Positions 45,756 through 50,011 of a stretch of 64,000 nucleotides of DNA are shown piece after piece (positions within the stretch are counted from its first letter, which is position 1; every line of letters begins with the position of its first letter). A program made the translations under genes and the position numbers. Under the pieces are notes generated by a model that worked only from the letters and a program-made list of their open reading frames with translations, had not been told where the DNA came from and searched no databases. This DNA comes from Candidatus Hydrogenedentota bacterium (lineage in GTDB: Bacteria; Hydrogenedentota; Hydrogenedentia; Hydrogenedentales; JAEUWI01), in NCBI GenBank assembly GCA_016791475.1, contig JAEUWI010000002.1, positions 124,001 to 188,000 on the forward strand, in the 5' to 3' direction.

Positions 45756-47216
45756 TTAGTAGCGGTAGTGCTCGGGCTTGTAGGGGCCTTCCACCGGAAT
45801 GCCCATATACTTGGACTGGGCGGGGGTGAGCGCGTCGAGCTTCACGCCGAGCTTTTCCAGGTGGAGGCGGGCCACTTCTTCATCCAACGTCTTGGGCAGG
45901 GTATAGACCTTGCCGATTTCGAATTCGCTGGTCTTGGTGAAAAGGGCGATCTGGGCGAGGGTCTGGTTCGCGAAGGAGTTGGACATCACGAAGGAGGGGT
46001 GACCCGTGGCGCAGCCGAGGTTCACCAGGCGGCCCTTGGCCAGCACGATGATGGAGTTGCCGTTCGGGAAGGTGAACTTGTCCACCTGGGGCTTGATTTC
46101 CAGTTCGGTCACGCCGGGCTCGCGCTCGAGGGCCGCGATCTGGATCTCGGAGTCGAAGTGGCCTATGTTGCACACGATGGCGTTGTTCTTCATGGCCTTC
46201 ATGTGGTCCAGGGTGATCACGTCGCAGCAGCCGGTGGTGGTGACGAAGATGTCGCCCTGGGGCGCGGCGTCGTTCATGGTGAGCACCTGGTAGCCTTCCA
46301 TCGCCGCCTGAAGCGCGCAGATGGGGTCGATTTCGGTGACCATCACGCGGGCGCCCAGGCCCTTCATCGCGTCGGCGCAGCCCTTGCCCACGTCGCCGTA
46401 GCCCGCGACCACGACCACCTTGCCGGCGATCATCACGTCGGTCGCGCGCTTGATGCCGTCGGCGAGGGACTCGCGGCAGCCGTAGAGGTTGTCGAACTTC
46501 GACTTGGTGACGGAGTCGTTCACGTTCATCGCGCGGGTGCGAAGCTTGCCCTCTTTCATCATGTGATAGAGGCGGTGCACGCCGGTCGTGGTCTCCTCGG
46601 AGACGCCGATCCAGTTTTCCACCGTGCGGTGCCAGATGTTCTGGTCGTCGGCGTGGACGCGGTGCAGCAGCGAATCCACGATGCGGATCTCGTCGTTGTC
46701 CGTGCAGATGTCGGGCAGCACGCCGTGGGCGTTGTAGTGCTCTTCGAAATCATAGCCGCGGTGGATCAGCAGCGTAGCGTCTCCGCCATCGTCCACGATC
46801 ATGTTCAGCGTGCGGCCGCCGGAGAAGAGCATGGCCTGGTAGGTACACCACCAGTATTCCTCCAGCGTCTCGCCTTTCCACGCGAACACGGGCACGCCCG
46901 CCTTGGCGATGGCCGCCGCCGCGTGATCCTGCGTCGAGAAGATGTTGCAGCTCGCCCAGCGCACTTCGGCACCCAGGGCCACCAGCGTCTCGATGAGCAC
47001 CGCCGTCTGGATGGTCATATGGAGCGAACCCATGATGACCGCGCCGGTGAGGGGCTTGTCCTTGGAATAGCGTTCGCGGATGGCCATGAGACCGGGCATC
47101 TCGATCTCGGCCAGGTCCAATTCCTTCCGTCCCCAGTCGGCCAGGCTCATGTCGGCGACTTTGTAGGGCAGTTCGGCGTCGATGGCCGGGAAAATGTCGA
47201 TTTCGGCGATTGCCAT
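45756..47216 (-). CDS. ahcY: S-adenosyl-L-homocysteine hydrolase
   Basis: A 486-residue enzyme started at ATG 47216, with AAGGAG eight bases upstream; the frame extends 23 codons further without support. Key segments: [76 protein letters not shown], the NAD-binding [20 protein letters not shown], and the C-terminal YKPEHYRY that closes the cofactor site of the adjacent subunit. It splits SAH into adenosine and homocysteine and so keeps methyltransferases active. The ~40-residue insertion typical of many bacterial enzymes is present. It has a strong terminator. Confidence 0.98.
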
Positions 47217-47691
47217 GGGGTGTTCTCCTTGTATCGGTGCTATGGTGGCTGGCACCGCCAGCGATGGTTCTCGGGCAAACTGCAACTAAAGACCCGCACG
47301 GGCGGCAACGAGATACACGGCGGGGAAAATCTGGGAAGGGCGTGGGGGAAGTATACGGCTTTGGGGGCATTTCGAGCAAGTGAAAGAAGACTGATTGGAC
47401 AGGATATACAGGATGGACAAGATTGGACACATACCCGTGAGGTCGTGAAAACCAACCCAGGGTGCCACCCGCACACGCGGGAGCCTGAGCGACCAAGTTT
47501 GCGGGTGATGGAACTGCAATTAGGGAAGATCTCTCCGACGGACAGTGGCGCCCCTCGCCAAAGTCATCTCACCCGTAAGCTCCCCCGCTTCGCTCCGCCG
47601 CGTACGGGTGGCACCCCGTAGTCGGCTTTTCGGCCTGAGCAAATTGCGCTGATGCCCTAATTCGTAATTCTCAATTCTCAATTCTCAATTC
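47217..47691. other. Non-coding gap upstream of ahcY
   Basis: A 475-base stretch without a convincing gene. It contains a degenerate 9-base repeat at 47393-47429 (GATTGGACA/GGATATACA/GGATGGACA/GATTGGACA) and, at its far end, the AATTCTC heptamers that overlap the stop of the ECF-ankyrin gene. I looked for SAH- or SAM-riboswitch features before ahcY and found none. Confidence 0.6.
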
Positions 47692-47700
47692 TTAATTCCC
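47659..47700. repeat. AATTCTC heptamer array, six units
   Basis: Units AATTCGT, three of AATTCTC, AATTCTT and AATTCCC run in tandem. The TAA stop of the ECF-ankyrin gene (minus strand, 47692-47694) lies inside the array. Confidence 0.9.
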
Positions 47701-49293
47701 CTTCCCCACCCCCATCCGCCCGCCGTGGAGATACAGCAGCCGTGCGGCGCTCTCGCGCCCGAAAAACAGCGCCTCTTGGAGGGGCGTCTTCCGAAACATC
47801 CGGTCGCAGCGGTTCACTTCCGCGCCCTGGTGGAGCAGGAGCCGCACAAGGCCGTCCTGGCCGCGTACCGAAGCCGCGTGGAGTGGTGTAAAGCCGAAGG
47901 AACCCGCGTGTTTGTCGATGGTGCCCGGCTGCTGCGCCAGCATCTCCAGCAGGGCCTCGTTGCGCCCGAGGGCGATGGCGCTGATGGGATCCAGCTTGGC
48001 CCCGCGCGCGATCAGGTACTCCGCCAATTCCTCGTGTCCGCGCTCGGCGGCGATATTGAGGGGCGACGCACCGATTTTCAGGCGCTGGTTCACGCTGTCC
48101 GAATCCCGCCGTATCAAGCGGTGGGCCAGGTCCAGATCGCCCAGCGAAGCGGCGGCAAACAAATCGAGCGAGAGGCCCGCGTTACGCGCAATACCGATAA
48201 GTCCCCGGCTCGGGTGTCCCGCCGCGAGGTGCATGAGGCCCTTGCCGTTGTTCATCACGCGGCGCGGATCGCCGCCCGCGCCCAGCAGGAAAGAGAGCAC
48301 ATCACCGTGACCGAAGTCCGCCGCGAGGTGAACCGCCGTGCAGCCCCATTGATCGGGCAGGTTGGGATTGGCGCCGCGCAGGATGAGTTCCTTCGCGAGT
48401 CCGAGATGTCCGCCGCACACGGCCCAGTGCAGCGCGGTGCGCCGCCAGGGTCCGGCGAAATCTATCGTGCCGGCCAGCGGATTGGAGGGGATACCCAGCG
48501 CGCCCCGCTCGAAACGCCCCGGTCGCACGCCGCGCGACAGGAGCATCTGCACCACGCGATCATTGCCGGAGTAGTGGGCCGCATGAGCCGCAAAAAGCAG
48601 CAGAGAAAGGCCCTCGTCGTTAGTAGCCTCGGCCAGCTCGGGCGATTCCGCCAGCAGCGTCTCCACGCGGCTCGCATGGCCGTGCCACGCCGCCATGAAA
48701 ATCTGTACATCGCGCGGAAAGGCCTCGCTCTCGTCGGGCGCATCGTCGCGCTCGTTCGCGGCGGTCTGGCCGAGAAACTCCGCCATCTTCTGCCGCGCAG
48801 TGTAGAGGCGCTTCTTCACCGTGGTCAGGGGCAGGCCCAGGCGCTCGGCGAGGTCTTTCTGGGGCTCATTTTCCCAATAAACCGCATGGATCAAATCCCG
48901 CTGGTCGGGGGAAAGGGTCGTGAGGGCCAGGGCGACGAGCGAGTTGCGACCGTCCGACGCCATGCGCGCCGGGGCCAGAGGCGCCAGGTCCTGCGCGCCC
49001 GACGCCGCCGTCAATTCCACCGTGGGGTGGGATTTGAGCCGCGTCACCCGGTCGCACTGCTTCACCACAATCCGCTTGAACCATGAGGCAAAGGCCACGG
49101 GCGTATCGAGCTGGTGCAGCTTCAGGGCCGCCTCCAGGAAGGCCTCCTGCACGATTTCCTCGGCCCGGTGCCGATCATTGACCCAGGCATGGGCGCGATC
49201 CAGCGCAAAACGCTCAAAGCGCGACACCAGCGTCGTAAACGCTTTGGTGTCGCCTTCTTGCGCGGCGCGGACTATCTGTTCAAGGTCGTTCAT
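47692..49293 (-). CDS. ECF-type sigma factor fused to ankyrin repeats
   Basis: A 533-residue protein started at ATG 49293 (MNDLEQIVRAAQEGDTKAFT) with GGAAG upstream; the open frame extends 37 codons but that stretch is repeat-derived. Sigma region 2 spans about 15-90 (FTTLVSRFERFALDRAHAWV, RHRAEEIVQEAFLEAALKLH) and region 4 about 128-180 (LSPDQRDLIHAVYWENEPQK, DLAERLGLPLTTVKKRLYTA). From about residue 200 to the end there are roughly seven to nine ankyrin repeats (RTALHWAVCGGHLGLAKELI, CTAVHLAADFGHGDVLSFLL, ASPLNIAAERGHEELAEYLI, FTPLHAASVRGQDGLVRLLL). No anti-sigma gene is adjacent, so the ankyrin domain may itself be the regulatory or partner-binding module. Confidence 0.92.
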   Translation of the reverse strand: MNDLEQIVRAAQEGDTKAFTTLVSRFERFALDRAHAWVNDRHRAEEIVQEAFLEAALKLHQLDTPVAFASWFKRIVVKQCDRVTRLKSHPTVELTAASGAQDLAPLAPARMASDGRNSLVALALTTLSPDQRDLIHAVYWENEPQKDLAERLGLPLTTVKKRLYTARQKMAEFLGQTAANERDDAPDESEAFPRDVQIFMAAWHGHASRVETLLAESPELAEATNDEGLSLLLFAAHAAHYSGNDRVVQMLLSRGVRPGRFERGALGIPSNPLAGTIDFAGPWRRTALHWAVCGGHLGLAKELILRGANPNLPDQWGCTAVHLAADFGHGDVLSFLLGAGGDPRRVMNNGKGLMHLAAGHPSRGLIGIARNAGLSLDLFAAASLGDLDLAHRLIRRDSDSVNQRLKIGASPLNIAAERGHEELAEYLIARGAKLDPISAIALGRNEALLEMLAQQPGTIDKHAGSFGFTPLHAASVRGQDGLVRLLLHQGAEVNRCDRMFRKTPLQEALFFGRESAARLLYLHGGRMGVGKGN

Positions 49294-49369
49294 GGGGCTT
49301 CCGTCGGGGTTCTGCCTATTATACCCGGAAAGTCCCGTCGGGCGCTCGGAAAGATACCGTATATCAGAC

Positions 49370-49429: not shown

Positions 49430-50011
49430 TCAATCCGCCACGCTCATCCCCTTGATCGAGCCATTGGTCTTCAGGTCCGTGCCAAAGTGCATCTGCGCCG
49501 CCACGCGAAGGCTGGGGAAGCCCGAGACTCTTATCGTCGGCGGCGTGGTGTAGCCCGCGCCGCCATCCTCAATCTCGAAGCCAATGATCTGCCCCTGCTT
49601 CACCAGGGCAACCGCCTCCGCCTCGCGCACCTTCCAAAGTTCGCCGGGGCCCGGCGAATAGCGATAGTAGTCCGAAACCTCGTCCAGCCGCGCATTGGTC
49701 ACGCCAAGGGGACCCAGGGTCGCCAGCAGCACCGCCTTGTTCTCGTGGACCCGCTCGCCGCTCGGCGCCGTCCCCGCAGGCGCCGGATTAACGCCGCTGA
49801 AGGCCTGTCGGAACACGTCAGGCTCGACGCCCAGGGCCGCCGCGATGAGCACCACGGGACGACCATGATCCACGGGGTCGGTGTCGTGACCGCCGGTGAA
49901 CTGGACCGGAATGCGGGCGATTTCAGGCGGGGAACAGGAACTCAGGCAAGCGGTGATCAGTGCAAGCGCGCATATACCAAGGCGCCGCAACGACAATAGT
50001 GGGTCATGCAT
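49430..50011 (-). CDS. Lipoprotein, unknown function
   Basis: A 193-residue protein with a lipoprotein signal (LGICALALITACLSSCSP, lipobox LSSC). The mature part contains DHGRPVVLIAAALGVEPDVF and GVNPAPAGTAPSGERVHEN and ends in a domain with IEDGGAGYTTPPTIRVSGFP, a sequence that recurs in secreted proteins with YDG-like repeats. I do not recognise an enzyme. It is divergent from the fadN gene and followed by the nonamer hairpin. Confidence 0.75.
   Translation of the reverse strand: MHDPLLSLRRLGICALALITACLSSCSPPEIARIPVQFTGGHDTDPVDHGRPVVLIAAALGVEPDVFRQAFSGVNPAPAGTAPSGERVHENKAVLLATLGPLGVTNARLDEVSDYYRYSPGPGELWKVREAEAVALVKQGQIIGFEIEDGGAGYTTPPTIRVSGFPSLRVAAQMHFGTDLKTNGSIKGMSVAD

Follow-up and report, generated by a model that had tools for sequence, protein, structure and literature searches.

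The sigAnk locus and its product

The window, a stretch of 64,000 nucleotides from a Candidatus Hydrogenedentota bacterium, carries on its minus strand a gene, here called sigAnk, that encodes an ECF sigma factor with a C-terminal ankyrin array, and downstream of it ahcY, the gene for S-adenosylhomocysteine hydrolase. The features of the locus are as follows.

45756..47225, minus strand: ahcY, encoding S-adenosylhomocysteine hydrolase; a conserved neighbor and candidate target (Pfam AdoHcyase, E 1e-143; conserved order)
47288..47316, minus strand: putative SigAnk promoter of ahcY, GTATCT-N15-GGGTCTTT, located about 91 bases ahead of the ATG of ahcY (motif search)
47692..49293, minus strand: sigAnk, encoding a 533-aa ECF sigma factor that ends in an ankyrin array; start codon ATG at 49293
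47719..48714, minus strand: ankyrin array of about 10-11 helix pairs, residues 194-525 (Pfam Ank_2; AlphaFold2 secondary structure; PDB matches)
48784..48933, minus strand: sigma region 4, residues 121-170 (Pfam PF08281, above cut-off)
49054..49230, minus strand: sigma region 2, residues 22-80 (Pfam PF04542, above cut-off)
49318..49323, minus strand: TATAAT, conserved within the genus and possibly the housekeeping -10 of sigAnk (read from the sequences)
49329..49357, minus strand: putative SigAnk promoter of its own gene, GTATCT-N15-GGGACTTT (motif search)

The original prediction of an ECF sigma factor joined in one frame to about 330 residues of ankyrin repeats is borne out by this single open frame, in which Sigma70_r2 (22-80), Sigma70_r4_2 (121-170) and, in five stretches, Ank_2 (E 5e-51) all exceed the curated Pfam cut-offs, and which scores 61.9 bits against TIGR02937 (cut-off 42.9). 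The predicted coordinates were also correct, although the strand had been left unstated. Region 3 gave no Pfam match in SigAnk, and the presence of regions 2 and 4 with region 3 absent is the domain composition of the ECF (sigma-70 group 4) factors.

In an AlphaFold2 model the array forms a solenoid spanning approximately residues 194-525, with pLDDT values mostly of 80-95, and the best PDB matches of the model are ankyrin proteins and DARPins. The sigma region is modeled with confidence, while the linkers to the solenoid are less certain. The model offers no evidence of a fixed contact between the sigma and ankyrin parts, to be read in light of a modest pTM (0.67) and the lower confidence of the linker. 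The linker that joins sigma region 4 to the array, moreover, shows poor conservation.

Likewise, the earlier statement that no anti-sigma gene adjoins sigAnk agrees with what is found nearby, as no anti-sigma candidate was seen and the upstream ORF at 49430-50011 has neither a Pfam match nor a relative at other loci. Part of the ankyrin array is also matched by the model for MzaA (NCBIfam NF041931), a protein of the MZA anti-phage system that is named as a sigma-70 family protein. Assignment of SigAnk to this defense system was rejected, as the match scores 44.8 bits where the cut-off is 800 and is confined to ankyrin residues; PADLOC returned just ankyrin-type and weak matches for SigAnk.

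Distribution, conservation, and gene order

Across 68 Candidatus Hydrogenedentota genomes, the full-length fusion occurs in seven, distributed over three families, with no full-length match in the remainder. Four of the seven form the genus of the window (G000, the 7.7 Mb genome in 529 contigs from which the window comes, and G001, G002, and G003; identities of 100, 71, 60, and 60%); those outside the genus (G009, G011, and G035) comprise one genome of a second family (50%) and two of a third (43 and 40%). Because the gene is collinear and full-length in seven separate assemblies, the fusion is no sequencing artefact but a real single gene. A single scan of genome contigs with short peptide patterns returned one fusion-bearing relative (L009), whose contig agrees in length and match with that of G003, and a protein with ankyrin repeats alone (L010), and no sigma-ankyrin fusion was found on plasmids, phages, or viral contigs.

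Among the orthologs, the ankyrin and sigma parts are conserved to about the same degree, with dN/dS of roughly 0.08-0.22 in the former versus 0.13-0.26 in the latter (ratios taken from computed dN and dS). The array, conserved and under purifying selection as the sigma part is, is therefore a functional part of the protein rather than a decaying tail.

Other extended sigma factors occur in the phylum. In two other Hydrogenedentota genomes, the best matches to the SigAnk sigma domain are ECF factors fused to a PheS-like class II tRNA-synthetase core, a domain that possibly serves these proteins as an amino-acid or tRNA-related sensor:

L034 6157-7512, plus strand: ECF factor with class II tRNA-synthetase core (tRNA-synt_2d, E 7e-29; pheS TIGR00468 below cut-off)
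L035 5625-6935, plus strand: ECF factor with class II tRNA-synthetase core (tRNA-synt_2d, E 1e-15; pheS TIGR00468 below cut-off)

The genome of the window itself encodes more ECF factors within long frames, in which an apparent membrane helix is followed by a large C-terminal region (L005 1417-3513 and L006 1387-3615, both on the plus strand).

The gene order around sigAnk is as constant as its architecture. In all seven fusion-bearing genomes ahcY follows sigAnk on the same strand, and 40 ahcY loci examined in other genomes have no gene of this type upstream. The gap between the two genes ranges from 86 to 530 bases, with the exception of G035, where it is 2.8 kb and includes an opposite-strand ORF; in G009 and G011 it is short enough that readthrough into ahcY would be permitted. 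In two fusion-free genomes (L069 and L070), an ordinary ECF sigma factor of 192-196 aa is encoded on the opposite strand, about 0.6-1.2 kb ahead of ahcY. One relative within the genus has an Acido-Lenti-1 RNA between sigAnk and ahcY (L029 1157-1210, minus strand). This RNA was the sole Rfam match at the loci scanned, and with no Rfam riboswitch detected at these loci, control of ahcY or metH by an upstream SAH or SAM riboswitch was rejected.

A promoter-like motif and the genes it marks

Upstream of sigAnk is a two-box, directional, promoter-like motif, GTATCY-N15-GGGWCTTT, with an N14 variant. In a de novo search, the top dyad, GTATC-N15-CGGG, was present in 7 of 14 regions upstream of sigAnk or ahcY, against a maximum of 3 in shuffled sequences, and a relaxed form, GTAWCY-N15-GGGWC, precedes sigAnk in every one of the seven genomes, oriented with the gene and at constant spacing. 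Genome-wide, loose matches are no more frequent than those of a reversed control, so that only their location and their sharing across species are informative. When the loose matches of the four genus members were compared in a search blind to gene identity, metH emerged as the downstream gene common to all four besides sigAnk. The region concerned is the intergenic DNA between the divergent metF and metH genes, where a second site, on the other strand, faces metF. The motif, which is not a palindrome, always faces its target gene, and in this divergent region it does so in both directions; at the metF sites and at the glyA site of G003 the spacing is shorter by one base. The target identities follow from Pfam (AdoHcyase, S-methyl_trans, MTHFR, and SHMT). 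A two-box promoter-like motif common to its own gene and its targets, as is looked for in an ECF factor, is thus present at the level of sequence. Loose matches also lie, in G000 and G001 alone (L121 and L141), upstream of a gene resembling sdhC (succinate dehydrogenase cytochrome b), at different distances and possibly by chance.

A strict pattern, GTATCN{15,16}GGGWCTTT, was searched genome-wide. It has four matches in the 7.7 Mb of G000, at sigAnk, ahcY, metF, and glyA. Both matches in G001 are at sigAnk and glyA, two of three in G002 at sigAnk and metH, all four in G003 at sigAnk, glyA, metH, and metF, and the single match in G035 at glyA; the two in G009 lie at neither methyl-cycle nor SigAnk genes and look incidental. 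Overall, 13 of the 16 matches in fusion-bearing genomes fall at methyl-cycle or SigAnk genes. The 61 fusion-free genomes of the phylum yield 20 matches, and none of the 19 loci inspected encodes these targets nearby.

The relaxed motif was looked for in the 300 bases upstream of ahcY, metH, metF, and glyA. Of 25 such regions in fusion-bearing genomes, 13 contain it, versus none of 106 in fusion-free genomes (Fisher p 2e-11, an optimistic value since related genomes share ancestry and are not independent samples). Two more sites lie beyond 300 bases, at metF in G000 and metH in G002. Six wrong spacings (N17-22) produced 9 matches across the seven genomes with the fusion, and not one of these coincided with sigAnk, ahcY, metH, metF, or glyA in its coordinates. 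The sites are not evenly distributed: ahcY has one in two of seven genomes and glyA in four of six, while a clear site is absent at metF, metH, and ahcY in G035 and at glyA and metF in G009. As a further target metK was rejected, with no motif site in any of the seven genomes.

A candidate sigma factor for the recycling arm of the methyl cycle

Taken together, these comparative genomic data, namely architecture, conservation, gene order, motif, and the set of genes marked, make it quite probable that SigAnk is autoregulated and, as an ECF sigma factor, directs transcription of methyl-cycle and one-carbon recycling genes, its ankyrin array being a built-in regulatory or docking domain. SigAnk would recognize promoters of the form GTATCY-N15(14)-GGGWCTTT and would drive its own gene together with ahcY, metH, metF, and the one-carbon supplier glyA. 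The marked set represents the recycling arm of the activated-methyl cycle, from SAH to methionine, in which ahcY serves to convert SAH to homocysteine, metH to convert homocysteine to methionine, and metF and glyA to supply methyl-folate. Weighing against this reading, some targets have no site in some genomes, and conserved TATAAT-like boxes are found at sigAnk and metH, where SigAnk would therefore serve a second promoter. Of the original interpretation, the architecture and the missing adjacent anti-sigma gene stand, but the link to methyl-cycle genes through the ahcY neighbor and the shared motif had been overlooked.

A quite different explanation would make the motif the operator of a separate SahR- or MetR-like transcription factor for which sigAnk is merely one target among others. 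Consistent with this, the motif at some promoters sits beside a housekeeping-like -10 box or downstream of one, and the gene set resembles the MetR and SahR regulons (PMC4239095). The motif is non-palindromic, however, unlike that of MetR (PMC4239095); its two boxes keep a near-fixed spacing and the orientation of the gene, as in promoters; and it is found at these genes only in SigAnk-bearing genomes, all of which renders a separate regulator improbable. Less probable still is that the association reflects shared ancestry and chance motif matches, with SigAnk having some other function. Because four of the seven genomes belong to one genus, sites could indeed be inherited without function, but they persist where much of the surrounding non-coding DNA has diverged, they recur outside the genus at sigAnk (G009, G011, and G035), glyA (G035), and metH (G009), and matches of the strict pattern elsewhere are few.

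With no anti-sigma gene adjacent, the ankyrin array probably controls SigAnk activity; a regulatory or docking role is the likeliest reading of the conserved extension. The TPR and WD40 extensions known from ECF42 and ECF57 (PMC8999054) make the array, by analogy, the natural candidate for a control domain, which would bind a partner protein reporting the status of the methyl cycle. The signal would probably be an excess of SAH or homocysteine, or a shortage of methionine, the former being favored because metK has no site. More specifically, the array might dock a methyl-cycle enzyme, most plausibly AhcY, so that SAH occupancy of the enzyme would directly set transcription of the recycling pathway; although this is rather unlikely, it would amount to enzyme-sensed control of a sigma factor. 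A somewhat better, if still doubtful, variant has the array folding back to cap sigma regions 2 and 4, so that the protein inhibits itself until a ligand frees them, in the manner proposed for the SnoaL-like extension of ECF41. Fused inhibitory extensions of this kind have been described for ECF41 (PMC8999054), and the lack of an adjacent anti-sigma gene would fit such a cap. The poor conservation and lower confidence of the linker, along with the modest pTM, argue against it. Furthermore, ankyrin arrays usually bind proteins.

Several known systems share individual features with SigAnk. Like ECF41, ECF42, and ECF57, it has a long conserved C-terminal domain and no adjacent anti-sigma gene. 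ECF42 is likewise a two-domain ECF factor without an anti-sigma, whose C-terminal TPR array is proposed to receive a partner protein, and the WD40-like C-terminal extension of ECF57 is also a proposed protein binder (PMC8999054). The SigAnk extension, in contrast, consists of ankyrin rather than TPR or WD40-like repeats, and its neighbor is ahcY within a methyl-cycle gene set, whereas that of ECF42 is a YCII-domain gene. With respect to targets, the MetR regulon includes metH, metF, and glyA, and those of SahR and the SAH riboswitch include ahcY (PMC4239095). All of these genes recur in the SigAnk set, which also omits metK, as the SAH riboswitches do (PMC4239095). MetR and SahR, however, are DNA-binding proteins and the SAH riboswitch is an RNA switch, whereas SigAnk is a candidate ECF sigma regulator.

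ECF factors with C-terminal extensions are already known; what appears to be new is an ankyrin extension associated with a methyl-cycle gene set. An incomplete search of the literature returned no report of an ECF factor that has an ankyrin extension, or of one that serves the methyl cycle, and control of methionine and methyl-cycle genes in the works covered is by the DNA-binding proteins MetJ, MetR, and SahR or by riboswitches. If the proposed role is correct, an uncultured phylum would control this pathway by a different kind of regulator, one identified here along with its promoter and the genes it governs, and an ankyrin-tailed ECF factor would gain a concrete output and a short list of candidate inputs.
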